Shown in pieces: positions 10,195-24,511 of a DNA stretch of 38,837 bases. Where the stretch lies: the NCBI GenBank assembly GCA_001919715.1, contig MNIJ01000199.1, forward strand, positions 1-38,837, in the 5' to 3' direction. The stretch's first letter is position 1, and each line of letters begins with the position of its first letter. Under the pieces are notes generated by a model that saw nothing but the letters and a program-made list of their open reading frames with translations, did no database searches and had not been told where the DNA came from. A program made the translations under genes and the position numbers. The stretch is from Acidobacteria bacterium 13_1_20CM_58_21. GTDB taxonomy: Bacteria; Acidobacteriota; Terriglobia; Acidiferrales; UBA7541.

Positions 10195-10633
10195 CCGTGA
10201 AAATAAAGTCTTTTGCCGTTACAAAGGTATAGCACTGCTAACAAATTTTCTTCCGGAATGAGCTCTCGCTCCCGAAAGGTTGATCGTATCAGACGCTGCG
10301 TCACATAAAAACTGGGCATATCCGCATCCACTCGTGTCCGGAAATCTCTTGGAATCCATCTCCATGAACGAACCGATTTTAGAGTGTCCGCACGCCCACA
10401 AAATAGGGCGACGCAGCGTTCTTTTTTTTGGACCACTCGATCTTTGCAATCATGGAGCCTTCGGGAAAAGGCCTGCCATTGCCGGGAATGCCTTCCTTAT
10501 ACGCGTTTATCATCACGGGATTCCCCAGGATGGCCTTGATCCCAACTTCCGTCTGACGCGCTGCGACATCCTGCGATGTTTCGTATCCACTAAACTCAGA
10601 AAACGCACAACGGGCAGCATCATCGTTGATCAA
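10195..10633 (-). pseudogene. Decayed cytochrome P460-family protein
   Basis: FSGYETSQDVAARQTEVGIKAILGNPVMINAYKEGIPGNGRPFPEGSMIAKIEWSKKK, then a frame change to FMEMDSKRFPDTSGCGYAQFLCDAASDTINL. The haem CxxCH motif expected near the C-terminus is not recoverable; signal peptide missing. Confidence 0.75.
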
Positions 10634-13600
10634 TGTCTGCTTGCCTCCAGCCCGGTCCTCGCAGCGCCTGGCCCGCCATGATCCCCGTCAATTTGCCATC
10701 CTGGAATTCTAATTGGCCATTGACGAAGACATATCTCACACCTTTGGAAAGGCTGGTAGGCTCGGCATATGTTGCCGTGTCTTGAATGGAATTGGGATCG
10801 AAGACTGTGATATCGGCAAAATAGCCCTCCTTGAGCAGGCCACGATTGAGTAAGCGTTCGCGTTGAGCGGGCAGGGAGGTCATTTTACGAATAGCTTGTT
10901 CAAGCGGCAGCAGGTGCAGATCCCGGACGTAACGTCCAAGGAAGCGCGGCATCGCCCCAAAAGCTCTCGGGTGCGTGTGCTCTTCAAAGAGCGGTCCATC
11001 GAGAGATAATTCGCCTGCGTCGAGGCAGAGACTGGTCCACGGTTGCTTCAACCCGAATTGCATATCGTTTTCGCTGGCCATGAAGTAGAGCGCTCCGGTC
11101 TGGCCTTTATCCGCGAGGATGAAATCGAAGAGTGCATCGAGCTGTGTTTTCGTTTGCGTCTTGGCAATCTGGGCGACTGTCTTACCATCAAATTTCTTGA
11201 GATCCGGGTTTACCACACCCGAAACCATGACGCCGCCACCGCCGCCGCTGTCGAAGTATAAGTTTTCCCATTGCTGGTGGTCTGCGCTCATTTCTGCTTT
11301 TATCTTGGCGCGGGTCGCGGAGTCCCGCAGGCGCTGCAGGAGTTTCTCGATACCACCGTCGGCGACCCATGGCGGGAGGCTGGAAGCCAGAGCGGTGCCT
11401 CCGGCAATGTAGGGGTACATGTCCGCAGTTACATCCTGTCCTGAGTCACGCGCCGTTTGGATCATCCCAACGATTTTGGGCATGGAACCCCAGCGTGTCT
11501 TTCCGCTGACTTTAAGATGGAAGATTTCAACCGGCAGATGCGCTTCACGCCCAATGCGCAACGCCTCGGTGATGGCCGCCGGCTCGCTCTGTCCTTCACT
11601 CCGCATGTGCGTGCCGTAGATACCGCCGTATTGCGCAGCCACTTTTGCCAAGTCGATCAATTCTTCGGTTTTGGCGTAGTGTCCCGGTGGATAAATGAGC
11701 GCTGTTGAGATTCCGAACGCGCCTTGTTGCATGGCTTGTGCTACGAGAGCCTTCATCTTTTCCAGTTCCTTGGGCGTGGGTGGGCGGTCCACGTCCCCCA
11801 ACACTGCTTCTCGCACTTGCGCGGCACCCACGTATGTCCCGATATTCAGAGGAGTGCCAACCCTTTTCAGGCGGTCGAAGTAGCCATCCAGCGTGGCCCA
11901 ATCCACCTTGAGTTGGTAGTGGTCTAGCACGGGCTGAAGCGGTACCAGAGTAAGGTCCGTCTGTGGCGCGATTGATCCTCCCTCACCGGTAATTTCCGTG
12001 GTGATTCCCTGCGAAAGCTTGCTCAAGGAACGGTTGTCGATGAGTAGCGACGCTTCCGATTGTCCGAGCATGTCGATGAAGCCCGGCGAAACGACCAGTC
12101 CCGAGGCATCAATCGCGCGAATGGCGTGCGCGCCATCGAGTTTTCCGATCGCCACGATGCGGTTGCCGCGCAGCGCAATGTCCCCGGAAACCCAAGGATT
12201 TCCGGAGCCGTCAAGGATTTTTCCATTTTTAATGAGCACGTCGTAGTCACGGCTGCCTTGGACGCTTGCTTGCGAGTGCAATGGTGCGTCAAAAGCCGCG
12301 GAAGCGATTTCACCCAAGGCTTCTCCGACGATTTTTTGTGTCGCTTCAGGATCCTCCAAGGGAACGGCTACCATATTGGCGTAAAGCGCCAGAATAAGAT
12401 GCTCGCCGCTGGCTGTTTCCATATAGCCGGCAAGACCCTTGCCGGTGATCATCAAATTCTTGTTCAAGGCATCGTAGACGCCATACGTTCCGGTTTTTGC
12501 GTGCACGTGTCCCGCGGCAGGTGAGTTCACCTGAATCTTAAAGAGCGTGCCATCTTTTCCCAGGATCGGCAGTGCGTGATGAAAATCGGCGAAATCTTTT
12601 TGTTTGGACATGTAAAGCAGATAGTGGACCATGAAATCCGGCGTATAAAAGGCGTTGCCACCGGCTCCGTCGCTTTGGGACGCGCCAGTAAGATCAAGCC
12701 CACCTTTCTTCAGAAAATCGTTCTCCAGGTCAAAACCCGTGGGATTAATTTGGTTAGCTTTGTTGCCCAGCAACGCGGCGAGAACGAAGGGCGTTATGCT
12801 GGCGTGAAGGTTCTGGCTGACTTTCAATGTGACCTTCACTTCTTCCGTGAGAGGTGGTGAAACATGCTCCGCGACTAGGTTCTCTGGTTTGTAGCTTGCG
12901 GCTAGCGCCTTAAAATCAGGCTTGTCCCCCGTAGACGCAAAGACAGAGGCCACACCATTTTCCTTCAGAGCTTCCATCAAAACGGTACCGGCAAAACGAC
13001 TGGGTTCAGGCACACCATAGGAGGCCATAGTAGAGCGGCCGCCAAGGGCCAGGGTGCCGGTCACGGTGACGATGTGCGTTCCGTCCTGGTTAGGTTTGCC
13101 ATCAGAGTATTCGAGCGAGGCCTTCGATCCGGCCTTTCCGGTTGTGGCCTGGTTGATGAACGTAACGTATGCCGTCCGCGGAGAGATCTTGAGTGTTACC
13201 GGGGCGCCTTCGGCCGAGCCAGGAGTGAAGACCACATCGAGGACGTTATCATTCACGACGATCGGCGATATTACTATGCCCGTGCCCAGCTCGCGTTCTC
13301 CTTCAGGAAAGAGAGTCACGTCCACCAAGAGCTTCCCATTTACGCGCCTGATGCCCTTATCGGCAATCTGTCGCGCAAACTCGCGCAGCACCAATAGTGT
13401 GTCGCCGGCTAGGCCCTTGCTATCGGGCCCTCCGTAGGAGTGATCTTGATCTTCAAATGCCAAAGTCCCATCCGGCTGAATACGGTTGGAAAGGTTAGAG
13501 TCGCCGCTGGCCACTAGCACCAGATCGCCGTCGAGCGTCCCGTCATTCTTAATCGGCCCCGTGCGATAAACCCTGGTATGGAAGCGGTAGTCTCCACCTA

Positions 13601-13883
13601 AGAGCTCGAGCGCTGTGCCCTCCGTGAGCAACTTGGTTGTGGAGCCAGGCACGAAGAGCTGTTGCGAATTCAACTCGTAGAGGACCTTCCCGGTATCGAG
13701 CGAATAAAATTCGATGCCGAATCGGGAGTGTGCAAATTCTGGGCGGCTCATGATTTTCTTGATCCGCTGCTCCAGGGCAGGGGGGAACTGCGCAGACACA
13801 GGACGCCTCGAAAGCCCGGCTAGAATAAACAATGTGCAGATTGCGAGAATTCGGAAAGCCTCTTTCTTGTTCATGGGGTACAC
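10620..13883 (-). CDS. Secreted fusion: DD-carboxypeptidase/endopeptidase (PBP4/DacB, S13) + N-acyl-D-amino-acid deacylase-like amidohydrolase
   Basis: 1087 aa ORF. Signal peptide MNKKEAFRILAICTLFILAGLSRRPVSAQ; S13 motifs STTK (aa 81-84), SQN (356-358), KTG (463-465); from about aa 545 DYDVLIKNGKILDGSGNPWVSGDIALRGNRIVAIG...VVSPGFIDMLGQSE...GTHMRSEG...FHLKVSG...HPRAFGAMPRFLGRYVRD. Confidence 0.9.
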   Translation of the reverse strand: MYPMNKKEAFRILAICTLFILAGLSRRPVSAQFPPALEQRIKKIMSRPEFAHSRFGIEFYSLDTGKVLYELNSQQLFVPGSTTKLLTEGTALELLGGDYRFHTRVYRTGPIKNDGTLDGDLVLVASGDSNLSNRIQPDGTLAFEDQDHSYGGPDSKGLAGDTLLVLREFARQIADKGIRRVNGKLLVDVTLFPEGERELGTGIVISPIVVNDNVLDVVFTPGSAEGAPVTLKISPRTAYVTFINQATTGKAGSKASLEYSDGKPNQDGTHIVTVTGTLALGGRSTMASYGVPEPSRFAGTVLMEALKENGVASVFASTGDKPDFKALAASYKPENLVAEHVSPPLTEEVKVTLKVSQNLHASITPFVLAALLGNKANQINPTGFDLENDFLKKGGLDLTGASQSDGAGGNAFYTPDFMVHYLLYMSKQKDFADFHHALPILGKDGTLFKIQVNSPAAGHVHAKTGTYGVYDALNKNLMITGKGLAGYMETASGEHLILALYANMVAVPLEDPEATQKIVGEALGEIASAAFDAPLHSQASVQGSRDYDVLIKNGKILDGSGNPWVSGDIALRGNRIVAIGKLDGAHAIRAIDASGLVVSPGFIDMLGQSEASLLIDNRSLSKLSQGITTEITGEGGSIAPQTDLTLVPLQPVLDHYQLKVDWATLDGYFDRLKRVGTPLNIGTYVGAAQVREAVLGDVDRPPTPKELEKMKALVAQAMQQGAFGISTALIYPPGHYAKTEELIDLAKVAAQYGGIYGTHMRSEGQSEPAAITEALRIGREAHLPVEIFHLKVSGKTRWGSMPKIVGMIQTARDSGQDVTADMYPYIAGGTALASSLPPWVADGGIEKLLQRLRDSATRAKIKAEMSADHQQWENLYFDSGGGGGVMVSGVVNPDLKKFDGKTVAQIAKTQTKTQLDALFDFILADKGQTGALYFMASENDMQFGLKQPWTSLCLDAGELSLDGPLFEEHTHPRAFGAMPRFLGRYVRDLHLLPLEQAIRKMTSLPAQRERLLNRGLLKEGYFADITVFDPNSIQDTATYAEPTSLSKGVRYVFVNGQLEFQDGKLTGIMAGQALRGPGWRQADIDQR

Positions 13884-14086
13884 GTCCTCGGACCTTCAGA
13901 TTTGTACGGAACCACGTGTCGGGCAGCAGGCGCGCTGACAAGAGAGGCAAATCCGCGGAGGAACCACGCACCTGTTCGAGTTGTTTTCATCGGAGTCGAC
14001 TGGGCTTGCTCCAGCGGCGAACATGATGAATGCCCAAAGCGTAAACTCCCTTGCCGTGTTCCCTGGTCATTCCCAAGGCTTCTGCC

Positions 14087-14736
14087 CTACACGGTGGCCA
14101 ACTGCGCGATCCAGTTGGTGGTGCGCACAGTAAGCCGTTCTATTCGATCGCGTCTTACTAAATATGCCAGACCTGGTACTTTGGGAACATGGATCGCGCC
14201 CATCGATGTGACCTCGACCTCGGGCTCGATAATGTCCTCGTCCCAATAACGTTTACTGGCTGAAACGTCGCTAGGGAGAGTGAAACCCTTCGAGCGTTGA
14301 CATCGCGACGTTGTGGGCTCTTCCAATACCCGATTCCAGCATCCCCCCGCACCAGACCGGGATGGAATGGTGGCGGCAAACTTCCTTCGACGCAGCGCGC
14401 TTCGGTATGCCCGCCAACGTGGCCAAGCTTGATGTTGATAGCCATCTCATGGCCGCGTATGTGCGACATTAGAGCAGGAAATTCGGAAGCGTCCAATATG
14501 TTTTTGCCGATGACCGAAGGAGCGATGAAATCGGAAAGCACGTGCCAGGCGGTTTCAGTTGTTTCAGCATTGTAGCCTGGCGTTTCGCTCGCTGTGACTT
14601 CGCCCCAGCCGCTGACACCATCCGCAATGGTTTCCACAAGAAGAATCCTGCGATTCTGGACGATCCCAAAACTTGTTTCAAACGGCGCCTTGAGACGCAT
14701 GTGAATTTCACGCAATGCGATCGCTTCAATCTTCAT
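14087..14736 (-). pseudogene. Internally deleted o-succinylbenzoate synthase/N-succinylamino-acid racemase family (enolase superfamily) relic
   Basis: N-terminus MKIEAIALREIHMRLKAPFETSFGIVQNRRILLVETIADGVSGWGEVTASETPGYNAETTETAW...SHIRGHEMA; then [22 protein letters not shown] and, after a frameshift, [53 protein letters not shown]. The catalytic barrel between these parts is missing. Confidence 0.82.
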
Positions 14737-14936: not shown

Positions 14937-15821
14937 ATGCAAGCAGTTCAGGCAAGAACGAGAATTACACTCAAGAACATTTTGTTCGCAACTGACTTTT
15001 CACCAGCAGCGGACCTGGCCGCACTGATCGCCATCCAGATCGCGCGACCTTACGGCGCCAAGGTATATGGGGTACACGTGAATAGATTCGATGATTACAC
15101 GGGTGCTGCACCCAATGCCTGGGCCGCGATGGCTGAGGCCGCGGAGAAGGAGAGCAAGGAAGATGCACGACGCCTGAATGAACAGCTCCAGGGCATCGAA
15201 CACGAGGTAGTAGTCGGTGAAGGTAAGATTTGGGAAGTCATGTCCGATCTGATCGAACAGAAGGAAATCGACCTGGTTGTGCTGGGGACCCGCGGGCGCA
15301 CGGGTTTGGGAAAGACGTTATTCGGTTCGGTTGCCGAAGAGATTCTCAGGCAATCGCCGTGCCCGGTGCTGACGGTTGGCCCACACGTGAACCCTTGGTC
15401 CGAAGAATACGCAAAGATGCGGGAAATCCTGTGCGCCACGGACCTGGCCACGGACACGCCAATAGCGGCTCCGTACGCCATATCTCTGGCGCAAGAGAAC
15501 CAGGCGCATCTCGTGTTGCTGCACGTGATCGAAGACCCCAAGGTAGGGGATCTGGTGGACACCCCAGAGGTGGTGGATTTGAAGCAACGAAAGCTCCAGC
15601 ACTTGGTTACGGAGCAAGCCGGATTGTGGTGCGAACCCACCTACGTCGTGGAACAAGGACCGGCGGCAGAGAAAATCCTGGATGTTGCAAAACGGCGGCA
15701 CACGGATCTGATCGTGCTGGGGGCCCGGCCGGCAAAGGGTTTTGCAACGCATCTGAACGTTGGCGCGGTCCACAAGGTCGTGTCGCAAGCGAACTGCCCA
15801 GTCCTTACGGTTCGTGGCTGA
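14937..15821 (+). CDS. Universal stress protein, two tandem UspA domains
   Basis: KNILFATDFSPAADLAALIAIQIARPYGAKVYGVHV; DLVVLGTRGRTGLGKTLFGSVAEEILRQSPCPVLTVGP; second domain REILCATDLATDTPIAAPYAISLA...DLIVLGARPAKGF. Confidence 0.95.
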   Translation: MQAVQARTRITLKNILFATDFSPAADLAALIAIQIARPYGAKVYGVHVNRFDDYTGAAPNAWAAMAEAAEKESKEDARRLNEQLQGIEHEVVVGEGKIWEVMSDLIEQKEIDLVVLGTRGRTGLGKTLFGSVAEEILRQSPCPVLTVGPHVNPWSEEYAKMREILCATDLATDTPIAAPYAISLAQENQAHLVLLHVIEDPKVGDLVDTPEVVDLKQRKLQHLVTEQAGLWCEPTYVVEQGPAAEKILDVAKRRHTDLIVLGARPAKGFATHLNVGAVHKVVSQANCPVLTVRG

Positions 15822-16641: not shown

Positions 16642-17892
16642 CTACAGGGCTTTTGATACGTTCGCGCTGGCCACGTCACCGATTTTTGCGGACGACAGCC
16701 TCCAACACTCTCTCGCAATTGCCCAATCTTCTTGAGCGCGCACGACGAAGACGCGAACGGCTGAATCGGAAAGGGAAATATCCTGGTCCGCAGGTGACTG
16801 CGCATTCTTCTCGGCGTCGAGTTTCAAGCCAAGAAATTCGAAATTGGCGCAAGCCGCCCCTCGTATGTTAGGTGAATTCTCGCCGATCCCTGCGGTAAAG
16901 ACCAAAGCATCTATCCCGCCCAACGCTGCAATCATCGCGCCGATACCGGCCCGCAGGCGATGCACGAAGATCTCCAAAGCCAGCTTGGCCCGCCCATGGC
17001 CGTCGTTCGCAGCGGCCACGATCTGCCGCATATCACTCGAGATTCCAGAGATTCCCAGCAGACCTGATTTGGTGTTGAGCAAATCGTCGAGCTGCTGCCC
17101 GGTGAGCTGCCCTCGTCGCATTAAATAAGTGAGGATTCCGGGATCCACAGAACCTGATCGCGTACCCATCATAAGTCCTTCGAGGGGAGTAAAGCCCATA
17201 GTCGTATCTACGCTTAGTCCCTCACGAATAGCCGCCAGAGAGCAACCGTTCCCCAAATGACAGGTCACGAGTCTCAGCGACCTTAAATCCTTTCCGAGGA
17301 GTTGCGCGGTGCGCTGGGCGCAATACTGATGATTGATTCCGTGAAATCCATACCGACGAATCCCCTGAGCGAGCCATTCATAGGGGCCGGGATATACAGC
17401 CGCTGGTTCCGGTAATTGGCTGTGAAAGGCAGTGTCGAACACGGCCACCTGGAGAACCGTCCCGATGCGTTTCTCGATGATCTCGATCCCTGCCAGCTCA
17501 GCGCGGTTATGGAGCGGTGCAAAAGCGGACATGCTCGCTATCGCAGATTTCACTTTCGGCGTGATAGCGATTGTCTCACGGAGGTCCTTGCCACCGTGCA
17601 CGATACGATGACCTACTCCCGCGATTTCTGAAGGCGCGGAAACCACGCGCAGCTTTCCATTCCATAATGTATCCAGCAGTTGGTCGATAGCATTGGAGCG
17701 CGACGCAACCTTGACGCGATCTTTCAGATGATCCCCTTGCAGGTTCCACACTTGAACGTCGGCTTGATTGCCGTCCCATTCGATCTTGCCTGCCCAGACC
17801 GGTGCAGGTGGATGCTCCGGAAGTGTGTTTCCGATGTCGTAAAGACAGCTCTTCTGGCTACTGGAACCCGAGTTGAGTACAAGGATTTTCAT
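16642..17892 (-). CDS. ackA: Acetate kinase
   Basis: MKILVLNSGSSSQKSCLYDI start; GIRRYGFHGINHQYC; LVTCHLGNGCSLAAI; DTTMGFTPLEGLMMGTRSGSVDPGI; VFTAGIGENSP. Confidence 0.95.
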   Translation of the reverse strand: MKILVLNSGSSSQKSCLYDIGNTLPEHPPAPVWAGKIEWDGNQADVQVWNLQGDHLKDRVKVASRSNAIDQLLDTLWNGKLRVVSAPSEIAGVGHRIVHGGKDLRETIAITPKVKSAIASMSAFAPLHNRAELAGIEIIEKRIGTVLQVAVFDTAFHSQLPEPAAVYPGPYEWLAQGIRRYGFHGINHQYCAQRTAQLLGKDLRSLRLVTCHLGNGCSLAAIREGLSVDTTMGFTPLEGLMMGTRSGSVDPGILTYLMRRGQLTGQQLDDLLNTKSGLLGISGISSDMRQIVAAANDGHGRAKLALEIFVHRLRAGIGAMIAALGGIDALVFTAGIGENSPNIRGAACANFEFLGLKLDAEKNAQSPADQDISLSDSAVRVFVVRAQEDWAIARECWRLSSAKIGDVASANVSKAL

Positions 17893-17896
17893 GCCC

Positions 17897-20299
17897 CTAA
17901 GAGGGCCATTTCCAATCCCGGATTTCCGGCAAGTCGTCTCCATGCTCGCGGATGTATTGTTTGTGCTCAACGAGCTTGTTGCGCAGGAACTGTTTGAAGT
18001 GTGCGCCTAGGCGTTGCAAGCGCGGGACGCGGTCGACGACGTCGCCCGCTAGGTGAAATCGATCCAAATCGTTTAGGACCGTCATATCGAAGGGAGTGGT
18101 CGTCGTGCCTTCTTCCTTATATCCGCGGACATGGAAGTTGTCATGATTCGTGCGTCGATAAGTCAGCCGGTGGATCAGCCAAGGATAGCCGTGATAGGCA
18201 AAGATGACCGGCTTGTCGATTGTGAATATGGAGTCGAACTCACGGTCGGGGAGGCCATGGGGATGTTCGGTTGAGGGCTGGATGGTCATCAAGTCAACCA
18301 CATTGACGACCCGGACCTTGATATCAGGAAAGTGTTGGCGCAGCAGATCGACAGCCGCAAGCGTCTCTAGTGTCGGGACATCTCCGGCACAGACCATCAC
18401 CACATCCGGATCGCTTCCCTGGTCGCTCGAAGCCCACTGCCAGATTCCAATCCCATTCGTGCAATGCTGGATGGCTGATTCCATCTCGAGCCATTGCAGC
18501 GCCGGCTGCTTTCCGGCGACGATAACGTTGACGTAGTCTCGGCTGCGGAGGCAGTGATCAGCCACCGAAAGCAGCGTGTTGGCATCCGGAGGAAGGTACA
18601 CGCGGACAATATCGGCCTTCTTGTTTACGACATGGTCGATGAAGCCAGGGTCTTGGTGGGTGAAGCCGTTATGGTCTTGGCGCCAAACGTGTGAAGTAAG
18701 TAGGTAATTCAGTGAGGCGATTGGGCGTCGCCAAGGAATATTTCTCGTTACCTTGAGCCACTTTGCGTGCTGATTGAACATGGAGTCTACGATGTGAATG
18801 AAAGCCTCGTAGCAGGAGAAAAAGCCATGGCGGCCAGTGAGCAGATAACCCTCGAGCCAGCCCTGGCACATATGCTCACTGAGCACCTCCATCACACGGC
18901 CATCTCTTGAGAGGTGCTCGTCCGTAGGAAGAACCGGCCCCAAGAAAACTTTGTCAGTGATTTCGAACACGGCATCTAGACGGTTTGAGGCGGTCTCGTC
19001 GGGACCAAATACCCGGAAGTTCTTTGAGCCCGCGTTGCCTTTCATAACATCACGCAGAAGGTTTCCTAAGACTCGAGTGGCTTCCGCGATCTCGATGCCT
19101 GGCTTTGGCACGCTCACCGCATATTCGCGGAAGTCTGGCATCACCAGGTCCTTAAGCAGCAGTCCTCCATTCGCATGCGGATTGGCGCCCATCCTGCTTG
19201 TGCCACTCGGCGCGAGTTCGGCTAGCTCTGGAATTAGCTTGCCGCTTCCATCGAACAGCTCTTCTGGCCGGTAGCTCTTGAGCCACTGTTCCAATATCTT
19301 TACGTGGTCAGGGCGTGACACAAAATTCGTAACTGGGACCTGGTGTGCACGCCAAGTGTCTTCGACCGGTTTTCCGTCGACTATCTTTGGTCCTGTCCAA
19401 CCCTTCGGCGTTCGCAGGATGATCATCGGCCACACGGGGAGTCCGGTACACCGCTCCTTGCGGGCAGCATTCTGAACGGCGTGAATTTCCTCGATGACCG
19501 CGTCGAGCGTGTGGGCCATGAGCTGGTGCATACTCTCTGGTTCATGGCCTTCCACAAAATGCGGCTTGTAACCATAGCCGGTGAAAAGTTCAGTCAATTC
19601 CGTGTCACTCAGACGCCCCAGTATGGTGGGGTTCGCGATTTTGTAACCGTTCAAGTGCAGTATGGGAAGAACCACGCCGTCGCGCGCGGGGTTCAGAAAC
19701 TTATTGGAGTGCCAACTCCCAGCCAGCGGCCCGGTCTCGGCCTCGCCATCACCCACTACACAACAAACCAGCAAGTCCGGATTATCGAACGCGGCGCCAT
19801 AAGCGTGAGCAATTGAGTATCCCAGTTCACCACCTTCGTGAATCGAGCCCGGTGTCTCTGGTGCGACGTGGCTTGGAATACCTCCGGGGAATGAGAACTG
19901 CTTAAAGAGTTTCTTCAGGCCCTCATCGGTTTGTGAAATGTTGGGGTAAAGTTCGCTGTAGGTGCCCTCCAGGTAGGTGTTGGCAACCAAACCGGGTCCT
20001 CCGTGACCGGGGCCAGTGACGTAGATAACGTTCAGGCCTTGCTTTTTAATCAACCGATTGAAATGAACATAGATGAAGTTTAGTCCTGGCGTCGTTCCCC
20101 AATGACCCAATAACCGCGGCTTGATGTGTTCGATTTTCAGTGGTTCATGAAGCAGTGGATTACCATAAAGGTAGATCTGCCCTACGGAAAGGTAATTCGC
20201 AGCGCGCCAGTAGGCATGCATCTTGCGCAGCTCTTCGGTGGACAAAGGCTCGTCGGATTCATGAGGCCTTGTTGAACCCGCGGACGCGGCCGTAGCCAT
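17897..20299 (-). CDS. xfp: Xylulose-5-phosphate/fructose-6-phosphate phosphoketolase
   Basis: [84 protein letters not shown]; start at the inner ATG preceded by gagggaggg; ORF is open to 20323. Confidence 0.95.
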
Positions 20300-20542
20300 A
20301 ACACTACCCTCCCTCGGTTGCATCTAGTCCGCCGATGCAAGCAGACCGGCAAATGACATCTTACCTCAGGGGCGGCGAGCCAAGTGCGTCGGCTGGCATT
20401 TGAAGAGGCCATCACACTAGGGATGGCGAGGCTCATAGGCTATGTGAGTGCATACTGACACACAAGAGGCGGAGAATTCAGTAAGAACGAGGCGCGGTTA
20501 CTCTAGGACGAAAGGAATGCACGGCCCCAAGCACGAGACCCG

Positions 20543-21321: not shown

Positions 21322-21447
21322 CGCGACTAGCGTTCGATTGCGCTACAAATGTCAGGCCAGTTCTCATTTGCCGGATGGCTGTATATGCCAAGCGGGTTTC
21401 GTTTTGTGTCGCGCAGGGAGGGAGGTATACTCCGGGGCGGTGACTTC

Positions 21448-22164
21448 ATGCGCGCCCCTTACGGTTTAGAAATCATTGAGAGCTGTCTGTCCTGCCCCCA
21501 CCGCGAGGATCGGCTCTTTTGTAACCTTCCTCCCCCTGCGGTGCAGAAGTTGGCGGCCATCCCCTCGGCGGCGGCTTACCCGAAGGGGGCAACCCTGTTC
21601 GTAGAAGGGCAGTCAGCGCGCGGAGTTTTCATTTTATGCAGTGGCAAGGTCAAACTGTCGACTTCCTCCGCCGATGGGAAAAGTCTCATTCTTAGGATCT
21701 CGGAACAGGGAGAGGTCCTGGGCCTGCCCGCGACGGTCACCGGCAAACCTTATGAGCTCACCGCCGATGTGATCGAACCTACGCAAGCAAATTTCATTTC
21801 TCGAACAGATTTCTTGCTGTTCCTGCGTGAGCATGGCGAGGCAGCCCTGCGCGTGGCGCAGCAGCTCGGTGAAACGTATCATTTGGCGATCGCGGAAATG
21901 CGCACCATTGGGCTCTCTCGTTCCGCGGCTGAGAAGTTGGCCCGCTTCCTGCTAGATCTCGCTGCAAACCATGATGAAGAAAAAGGCGAGGTGAAGCTCA
22001 CGCTTACCCTCACGCACGAAGAGATCGCCCAAATGATCGGAGCTTCCCGAGAGACCGTGACGCGGCTGTTCGCCGATTTCAAGAAAAAAGATTTCTTGCA
22101 AGTAAAAGGTTCGACGCTTATTATAAGAAACAAGGCGGGGCTCGAAAGCGTCGTGGCCGCTTAG
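21448..22164 (+). CDS. Crp/Fnr-family transcriptional regulator with N-terminal cysteine cluster
   Basis: ESCLSCPHREDRLFCNL (possible Fe-S ligands, plus ILCSGKVKLS); cNMP-like fold; HTH LTHEEIAQMIGASRETVTRLFADFKKKDFL. ORF is open from 21349; inner ATG preferred. Confidence 0.9.
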   Translation: MRAPYGLEIIESCLSCPHREDRLFCNLPPPAVQKLAAIPSAAAYPKGATLFVEGQSARGVFILCSGKVKLSTSSADGKSLILRISEQGEVLGLPATVTGKPYELTADVIEPTQANFISRTDFLLFLREHGEAALRVAQQLGETYHLAIAEMRTIGLSRSAAEKLARFLLDLAANHDEEKGEVKLTLTLTHEEIAQMIGASRETVTRLFADFKKKDFLQVKGSTLIIRNKAGLESVVAA

Positions 22165-22197
22165 CTCCTTCCCCTTCCAGGAAATCCTCTTCGCTTG

Positions 22198-22233
22198 TTG
22201 ATGTCCGTCACATCGATCGGTGACGCAGCTCGT
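22198..22233. promoter_or_regulatory. Partly decayed paired CRP-like operator upstream of the usp relic
   Basis: TTGATGTCCGTCAC (22198-22211) and GTGACGCAGCTCGT (22220-22233); inner part CGTCAC-N8-GTGACG is a perfect inverted pair with the same 22-bp spacing. Confidence 0.5.
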
Positions 22234-22793
22234 TGGAGTGCCTCAGGAGACCATGCTTGTCCGGGCCCAGTCGGTTTGGTCGCCAGTCGAGCAGGCATTG
22301 AACGAGTGTGAGGTTGACATGGTGATTTTGGGTACGCATGGACGCACCGGCGCTATGAAGCTGTTGCTTCGTTCCGTAGCGGAAGAAATCTTCAGGCAAG
22401 CCGGTGTACCGGTTCTCACGATTGGTCCGTCCGTAAGAAAAGGGGTTTCCTAGCCGGGGCCAATTTCGTCGGGTGCTGTTTGCAACCGATTTCACGAAGG
22501 AAGCGCAGGCGGCAGCGCCGTACGCCATTTCCATGGCCCGGGAGAATCAAGCGCGACTCGTGCTCCTGCACGTGATGCCTGACCCAGATTCCAAGATGAG
22601 GAAGAGGACCCCGCAAGACTCAGTGGCCAATGTGATGCATCAGCTCTACGAGTTGATTCCGCCGGAGGCGGAGCTGTGGTGTCGTCTGGAGGCTACCGTG
22701 CGTTTCGGAAACCCCGCGGAGCGAATTCTTGAAGCTATCATGGAAATCGAAGCCGATCTGATCGTGTTGGCAGTCCGCGATCGTTTTAGTTAA
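22220..22793 (+). pseudogene. Decayed two-domain universal stress protein
   Basis: VEQALNECEVDMVILGTHGRTGAMKLLLRSVAEEIFRQAGVPVLTIGPSVRKGVS*, then in another frame RRVLFATDFTKEAQAAAPYAISMARENQARLVLLHV...AERILEAIMEIEADLIVLAVRDRFS*. N-terminus and C-terminus are missing relative to the intact copy at 14937-15821. Confidence 0.85.
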
Positions 22794-23107
22794 TACTCCT
22801 CTGCAATTCTCCGATGCCGATGAGATTGAATCAGCCGACCAAGGCCGGTTTTTCTTGGAAGCTTTATTTCCCTTTCCCGGGAAGGGAATCGCCGCCATCG
22901 AATTCACAGGCTAGGAGTATCCAATTAGAACATACACTGTCTATGGAACCTGTGTCGGCTTATACTACCGCATGTGGAGATTGGGACTTCTTAAATCTTC
23001 GCGTCGCAAACACATTCAGATCCCGCTGAACTTCAACGAGGGTTGCGGGAATTGTTCTTGATGAGTGCACGACCTCGTCTCTGGCTCTGGGGATACTAGG
23101 AGCGAGA

Positions 23108-24511
23108 ATGGTTTCTCAAAGTGGGAAGGCCGATCCGCCAGTCCGGATTGTAGCAATTGACGACGACTTGGAATTTCTTGACTTCCTCACCCAGGCGCTA
23201 AGCGAAAGCAGGCTGGAAATCGTCACTTCTGCCAATCCTGAGGAGGGATTGGACTTGGCCTTGGGGGTGCGCACGGATATTGTTCTGCTGGACCTAATGA
23301 TGCCCAGTTGCAGGGGCTTGGAAGTCCTGGACAAAATCGTCAGGGTGAACCCCACTATTAATGTAATTCTCCTGACCGGCGAATACTCGACGGAATCCGC
23401 AGTTGAGGCTATCCAAAAGGGTGCAGCCGACTATTTGAATAAACCAATTTCAGTCGAAGTGCTGCGACGCCGGGTGGGGAAGTTCGTGGACATTGCTCGT
23501 CAGCGGCGTGAAGCTACGCAAATTAGTCGTGACCTCGTGGAGGCTTTTCAGTTTGAGGGAATCGTAGGCTGGAGCCCTCTAATGTTGGAAGTATTTGATC
23601 GGATTCGACGCGTTGCTCCACATTTTCGGAATATTTTGATTAGCGGAGATACGGGAACGGGGAAGGAATTGGTGGCGCGCTCGCTCCATCGCCTTGGTCC
23701 TGTGCCTTCCGGACCCTTTGTGGTTTGCAATTGTGGAGCAATGGTCGAAACCTTGTTCGAGAGCGAGGTGTTTGGTCACGTGCAAGGAGCATTCACGGGG
23801 GCGGTCCAAGACAAGAAGGGATATTTTGAGCTTGCACATAGGGGCACTCTTTTCTTGGATGAAATAGGGGATGCCAGTCTCTCGACCCAGGCCAAGCTCC
23901 TTCGAGTGTTGCAGGACCATGTCGTACAACGCGTTGGATCCCCAGCGCTTCATGAGGTTGACGTGCACGTGGTAACCGCGACCAATCGCGATCTGCGCGC
24001 GATGGTGACAGAAAAGAAGTTTAGAGAGGATCTCTACTATCGAATTTCCCCCGTCGAAATCAAGTTACCGCGATTGTCCCGGCGCCGAGAGGATTTGCCC
24101 TTGCTCGAACGCCATTTTCTGGAGCGTTTCGCAGCACAATACAGTAAGCCCATTCGCGGAATTACGCGAAAGACTCAGATACTCTTGGCTCGACATTCCT
24201 GGCCGGGGAATGTACGTGAACTGGAAAACGTTCTCGCTCATGCCTGCATGATGGCGCAGGGAGATGTAATCGATGTTCGAGACCTTCCGGAAATGATGCG
24301 CGTCGAGCAATCAAACATCGGCGACTTGGATCCCGATCTGCGTTCACTCGAGGAAGTTCAGCGTCGGCATGTCCAACGCGTTCTCAAAGTCGTCAAGGAT
24401 AACAAGGCTCAAGCTGCAGAAATCCTTGGAATAGGCCGCACTACGCTATACCGCATACTCGCAGAAGATGAAGCCCTTGCAGAAAATGAACGCAAGCACA
24501 AAGGTGCGTAG
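23108..24511 (+). CDS. Sigma-54-dependent response regulator (REC-AAA+-Fis HTH, NtrC family)
   Basis: Receiver IVAIDDDLEFLDFL...DIVLLDLMMP; Walker A GDTGTGKELVA; sigma-54 contact loop GAFTGA; Walker B GTLFLDEIGD; Fis-type HTH KAQAAEILGIGRTTLYRIL. Confidence 0.95.
   Translation: MVSQSGKADPPVRIVAIDDDLEFLDFLTQALSESRLEIVTSANPEEGLDLALGVRTDIVLLDLMMPSCRGLEVLDKIVRVNPTINVILLTGEYSTESAVEAIQKGAADYLNKPISVEVLRRRVGKFVDIARQRREATQISRDLVEAFQFEGIVGWSPLMLEVFDRIRRVAPHFRNILISGDTGTGKELVARSLHRLGPVPSGPFVVCNCGAMVETLFESEVFGHVQGAFTGAVQDKKGYFELAHRGTLFLDEIGDASLSTQAKLLRVLQDHVVQRVGSPALHEVDVHVVTATNRDLRAMVTEKKFREDLYYRISPVEIKLPRLSRRREDLPLLERHFLERFAAQYSKPIRGITRKTQILLARHSWPGNVRELENVLAHACMMAQGDVIDVRDLPEMMRVEQSNIGDLDPDLRSLEEVQRRHVQRVLKVVKDNKAQAAEILGIGRTTLYRILAEDEALAENERKHKGA

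Follow-up and report, generated by a model that had tools for sequence, protein, structure and literature searches.

The minus strand of a 38,837-nucleotide stretch of contig MNIJ01000199.1 (hereafter the window), from the soil organism Acidobacteria bacterium 13_1_20CM_58_21, encodes a single protein in which a peptidase of family S13, the PBP4 type, is followed by an amidohydrolase that has the fold of the D-aminoacylases and an altered metal site. We read this fusion as an exported two-enzyme protein that scavenges D-amino-acid-containing (peptidoglycan) peptides, and give that reading a probability of about 0.58. The gene is one uninterrupted frame of 1087 codons, as a preliminary description of the same DNA had reported, when counted from the first possible start, a GTG at 13883. 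An in-frame ATG forms codon 4, and a GAGGA sequence lies 10 nucleotides upstream of this ATG and only 1 nucleotide upstream of the GTG. Because the spacing fits the ATG and not the GTG, translation probably begins at 13874, for a likely product of 1084 amino acids. The signal peptide that had been described is also present. The gene and its parts outside the two domains are as follows, with residues numbered from the GTG.

10620..13883, minus strand: S13::amidohydrolase fusion gene P0001, 1087 codons plus stop; probable true start ATG 13874
13885..13889, minus strand: GAGGA, Shine-Dalgarno-like by its sequence
13791..13874, minus strand: Sec-type signal peptide MNKKEAFRILAICTLFILAGLSRRPVSA, residues 4-31 (M4-A31), read by eye from the translation; the model has a helix at 6-24
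12252..12290, minus strand: short interdomain linker, about residues 532-544; low model confidence at 539-544

An AlphaFold model of the fusion, computed with 44 relatives as input, has a mean predicted local distance difference test score (pLDDT, also the measure of confidence in the linker) of 87 and a predicted template modelling score (pTM) of 0.59. Compared by Foldseek, one half matches the D-aminoacylase 1m7j (template modelling score 0.90 by target) and the other the R39 DD-peptidase 1w79 (0.80).

The N-terminal half carries the features of an S13 enzyme throughout.

12366..13772, minus strand: Peptidase S13 domain (PBP4/DacC/R39-type DD-peptidase), residues 38-506; PF02113, TIGR00666, Foldseek 1w79 and 1w5d
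13632..13643, minus strand: SxxK motif, S81TTK84; S and K invariant
12810..12818, minus strand: SxN motif, S356QN358; S and N invariant
12489..12497, minus strand: KTG motif, K463TG465; invariant

The match to Pfam family PF02113 over residues 38-506 has an E-value of 2.9e-56 and 191.5 bits, against a cut-off of 22.8, and the NCBIfam PBP4 model TIGR00666 scores 149.8 bits, above its curated cut-off of 107.8. Foldseek matches for this half are to R39, PBP4a and PBP4 structures. All three active-site motifs noted previously (STTK, SQN and KTG) are in place, with their catalytic residues invariant in 25 of 25 S13-bearing alignment rows. The half thus resembles Escherichia coli PBP4/DacB, Bacillus subtilis PBP4a/DacC and Actinomadura R39 in fold, motifs, export signal and TIGR00666 score; the fusion differs from them by a second complete enzyme fold at the C-terminus, and DD-peptidase activity is here a prediction.

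The C-terminal half is where the protein departs from its nearest known relatives.

10653..12251, minus strand: amidohydrolase domain of the D-aminoacylase fold, LxQ subfamily (MLGQSE), residues 545-1077; 1m7j and 1rjp matched at about 1e-87
12060..12068, minus strand: L606-G607-Q608, replacing HxH; L in 70 and Q in 63 of 74 rows
11982..11984, minus strand: E634, replacing Cys96, the subtype V metal ligand of D-aminoacylase; E in 72 of 74 rows, with a one-residue alignment gap beside it
11607..11609, minus strand: H759, equivalent of the metal ligand His220; 39 of 39 amidohydrolase rows
11511..11519, minus strand: H789 (His250 equivalent) and K791 (equivalent of the carboxylate-binding Lys252); each in 39 of 39 rows
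11019..11021, minus strand: D955, equivalent of the catalytic Asp366; 74 of 74 rows
10965..10967, minus strand: R973, equivalent of the carboxylate-binding Arg377; 39 of 40 rows

This half had been described as a full-length amidohydrolase of the D-aminoacylase type, and so far as fold and length go the description stands; the defining motifs are absent. Like the D-aminoacylases and N-acyl-D-amino-acid deacylases represented by 1m7j, 3gip and 9g5m, it is full-length and keeps the equivalents of His220, His250 and Asp366 and of a carboxylate-binding Lys/Tyr/Arg set, to which the near-invariant Tyr823 belongs. Unlike them, it has LxQ for HxH, Glu for Cys96, a 7-residue insertion after the catalytic Asp, an export signal and a fusion partner. 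The motif GFID-SHTHDD of 1m7j aligns with GFID-MLGQSE here, and both histidines of the HxH that should follow strand 1 are lost. An earlier candidate for the catalytic Asp, D962, came from a mixed alignment in which the position seemed variable; it was rejected when realignment with 1m7j gave the invariant D955.

That a classical zinc D-aminoacylase of subtype V has here been joined to PBP4, as the preliminary description had it, is improbable. Its best sequence and fold matches are indeed D-aminoacylases, but subtype V is characterized by Cys/His/His plus Asp (PMC12017989). Here Glu stands in for the Cys and LxQ for HxH, which contradicts the assignment at its defining ligands. Both His and the catalytic Asp are kept, and beyond them agreement could still come only from substrate preference. 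The score against the NCBIfam subfamily PRK09061 (NF006560), 202.5, likewise falls below the cut-off of 340. Judged by its aligned residues, the amidohydrolase half is not an ordinary D-aminoacylase.

With HxH and the Cys ligand lost, any activity would require another kind of site, one like that of NagA. What the aligned positions do contain is Glu/His/His plus Asp, with HxH replaced, and the simplest reading is that the LxQ clade uses these residues as a one-metal site in the NagA manner; we predict that the half is a one-metal, D-specific amidase. E. coli NagA, a deacetylase of N-acetylglucosamine-6-phosphate belonging to subtype IV with QxN, works with a single metal, no HxH, Glu/His/His ligands and an Asp base. 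It is an analogue in its way of working rather than a family member, and differs in belonging to another subfamily, in its cytoplasmic location and in its sugar-phosphate substrate. Glu/His/His is the ligand set of subtype IV amidohydrolases (PMC12017989), and the NagA proteins of both E. coli and Vibrio cholerae, in the same superfamily, naturally carry QxN where HxH would stand, and each uses only one metal (PMC6016474). Within the same fold, the well-studied GlcNAc1A deacetylase PpOngB holds a single zinc at the beta site on Cys/His/His, with Asp as the base, and its carboxylate site includes Lys254, Tyr285 and Arg379 (PMC12017989). PpOngB is therefore alike in fold, in mononuclear beta-site chemistry (here predicted) and in its carboxylate-binding Lys/Tyr/Arg; it differs in retaining HxH and Cys97 and in requiring its histidines.

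The source genome is a draft of 239 contigs, 63% complete, and an assembly or frame error joining two neighboring genes near 12248 had been named as one finding that would undo the description. The probability of such an artefact is now practically nil, since the same junction occurs in about 30 other genomes. Frames with both domains, most of about 1080-1170 amino acids, were found in 22 of 35 genus-mates in a search of 60 near relatives, which also produced one in another family (G445); a few of the frames in genus-mates stop at the end of a contig or are broken by a shift of frame. When 399 genomes were searched across the class, seven further fusions emerged, one of them in a single-contig genome of 5.65 Mb (G593), and the total spans three families of one acidobacterial class. 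The gap between BLAST ends of the two domains is mostly 0-29 amino acids in these other fusions, and 94 in G445. In one relative (L001, 71% identical), a single exported frame of 1395 amino acids (L001:4984-9168) encodes a VanX-type Peptidase_M15 domain, then S13, then the LxQ amidohydrolase.

Of 396 acidobacterial genomes sampled, 194 have matches to the LxQ clade at E < 1e-60. A contig scan with short exact peptides matched only two close relatives and is uninformative on other phyla. The source genome has two more standalone amidohydrolase paralogues, C139:4272-5885 (50% identical, of LxQ type with MLGQSE) and C102:14012-15637 (45%). Long open frames adjoining other related amidohydrolases (L103-L117 checked) lack an S13 domain. 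Elsewhere in the broader amidohydrolase family, some proteins have a fusion partner on one side or the other, from among Beta-lactamase2, Beta-lactamase, Cyclase or Peptidase_M16 domains (L105:3369-6191, L107:2439-5462, L111:1140-3707, L112:3355-5952 and L116:1392-4661). The beta-lactamase-type fusions L105, L107 and L111 carry MLSHSE, MHSHSD or VHTHAE rather than strict LxQ, and are therefore weaker parallels to the S13 fusion.

In a tree of the amidohydrolase domain, all fusions fall into one clade with 100/100 support, and three standalone proteins are nested within it. The S13 tree, by contrast, intersperses the fusions with standalone proteins, which mostly come from the same syntenic locus. 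One of the genomes (G418) retains a scar: the C-terminal tail of the amidohydrolase can be read after the S13 stop, joined to a remnant of the first residues of the domain, so the domain has evidently been deleted internally from a former fusion. By the branching of these trees and the scar, the fusion arose early in this group and has come apart on several occasions, and separation is mostly secondary. For pairs of fusions with modest synonymous divergence (dS), the ratio of nonsynonymous to synonymous divergence (dN/dS) is 0.03-0.08 in the amidohydrolase and 0.08-0.11 in S13; only pairs with usable silent divergence enter these values, and comparisons of the window with its 71-77% identical relatives, saturated at silent sites, were not used. 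Purifying selection acts on both domains, and more strictly on the amidohydrolase than on S13.

Selection of this kind bears on the idea that the second half, having lost the HxH and Cys ligands, is a pseudoenzyme that serves an active DD-peptidase as a module for binding or structure. HxH is missing in nearly all members, and PpOngB mutants with HxH changed to Ala are inactive (PMC12017989). A pseudoenzyme, however, would have to be squared with stricter selection than on S13, with remaining metal ligands and a catalytic Asp that are invariant across dozens of genera, with persistence of the domain as standalone genes, many having a signal peptide, and with NagA as a natural one-metal precedent without HxH (PMC6016474). 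We consider a pseudoenzyme quite unlikely.

Loci carrying the fusion share a set of neighbors. In the larger fusion group the order is ilvDBNC, a MurR/RpiR regulator, in some cases an enolase resembling N-acylamino-acid racemase, a VanX-like M15 peptidase, S13 with or without the amidohydrolase, a small protein and gamma-glutamyltranspeptidase. In the group to which the window belongs it is MurR, an APC permease, an AmpH-like hydrolase, the enolase, sometimes M15, and the fusion, often with a TonB-type outer-membrane protein. The neighborhood varies, with shifts of order and single loci lacking some members. VanX/DdpX is a D-Ala-D-Ala dipeptidase (Peptidase_M15) and in the relatives occurs as neighbor or as N-terminal fusion partner. 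The neighboring enolase scores above the TIGR01928 cut-off; a role in menaquinone synthesis, as MenC, was considered and is disfavored because no MenD reaches the cut-off in the single-contig genome or in G406, and the enolase is more likely an N-acylamino-acid racemase or dipeptide epimerase. Taken together, the conserved neighbors fit scavenging of cell-wall D-peptides.

The mechanism we propose begins with the S13 domain, which would cleave D-Ala-D-Ala and D-Ala-meso-diaminopimelate bonds in the periplasm. In the amidohydrolase, Glu634, His759 and His789 would hold a single divalent metal at the beta site, with Asp955 as general base, as in E. coli NagA and with no HxH alpha site. This half would hydrolyze either the amide preceding a D-amino acid at the C-terminus or an N-acyl-D-amino acid, with Lys791, Tyr823 and Arg973 gripping the substrate's carboxylate, and the fusion would place both steps on a single chain. 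Release, uptake and conversion might be completed in relatives by the VanX-like M15 peptidase, permease, gamma-glutamyltranspeptidase and racemase-like enolase. The coupled exported processing of peptidoglycan D-residues suggested at the outset is thus supported by conservation of the fusion, by the triple fusion that includes a VanX-like M15 domain and by the neighbors that act on D-peptides or N-acyl-amino acids; membership of the second half among the D-aminoacylases is the part without support.

The substrate could instead be an amide other than that of a D-amino acid (an N-acetyl sugar acid, a cyclic imide or a lactone), with an active amidohydrolase and a fusion that reflects common export or regulation and not two successive reactions. 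The fold family already includes a carbohydrate deacetylase, PpOngB (PMC12017989), and related members are fused to such unrelated partners as the Cyclase and M16 domains. This is nevertheless unlikely given the conserved Lys/Tyr/Arg carboxylate triad, the neighboring genes, the joining of a VanX-like M15 domain to the same chain in L001, and the fusion of more distant family members to hydrolases of the serine beta-lactamase fold.

Several observations weigh against an exported, two-enzyme scavenging protein. In a mycobacterial NagA, mutations including HxH to QxN abolished activity (PMC6016474); with the inactive PpOngB mutants, this means that an enzyme cannot lose HxH without consequence unless something compensates. 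The fold of each half is predicted confidently, but the arrangement of the halves relative to each other is uncertain at the modest pTM of the model. The fusion is not necessary for function, since many genomes hold the two domains as separate genes. Finally, the window's own lineage departs from its relatives. The enolase, intact at related loci, is a pseudogene in this strain:

14099..14736, minus strand: pseudogene of the N-acylamino-acid-racemase/MenC-like enolase found ahead of the fusion in relatives; deletion of residues 100-258 (about 158) plus frameshifts, tblastn pieces in three frames, partial match to TIGR01928

No M15 peptidase was found in the window's own genome at its 63% completeness. 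A sibling genome (G411, 97% identical; L084:6831-9990) has the same junction and a clean 101-bp deletion that breaks the S13 part, while the amidohydrolase part stays open. Together, the broken racemase gene, the missing M15 and the sibling deletion suggest that this lineage may be losing the pathway.

A broader proposal can be made only tentatively, and we think it somewhat doubtful: that the LxQ (MLGQSE) clade, which is common across Acidobacteriota, makes up a catalytic subtype of its own within the D-aminoacylase fold. Its members would be D-specific extracytoplasmic peptidases or amidases that naturally lack HxH and hold one metal on Glu/His/His, and fusion to S13 (and in L001 to VanX-like M15) would form a single-chain line dismantling the D-amino-acid ends of peptidoglycan peptides. 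Both component kinds of enzyme are already known. The preliminary description knew of no account of the architecture, and our search of the open-access literature, which does not extend to subscription journals, found no description of the S13-amidohydrolase architecture or of the LxQ metal site and clade. Because their best matches are D-aminoacylases, LxQ-clade proteins will probably be given that name, yet they lack two defining motifs, and their annotation as D-aminoacylases is therefore unsafe. If they are active, the D-aminoacylase fold would have arrived on its own at a one-metal site of the NagA kind, and soil bacteria of a dominant group would have an extracytoplasmic route for using peptidoglycan D-amino acids, whether from their own turnover or from dead neighbors. 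The fusions make the coupling of the two activities directly testable on one protein.

Elsewhere in the window, phosphoketolase and acetate kinase genes lie amid universal stress proteins, a Crp-family regulator and a sigma-54 response regulator (16642-20323 on the minus strand, 14937-15821 and 21349-24511 on the plus strand), which suggests a low-oxygen or stress carbon module.

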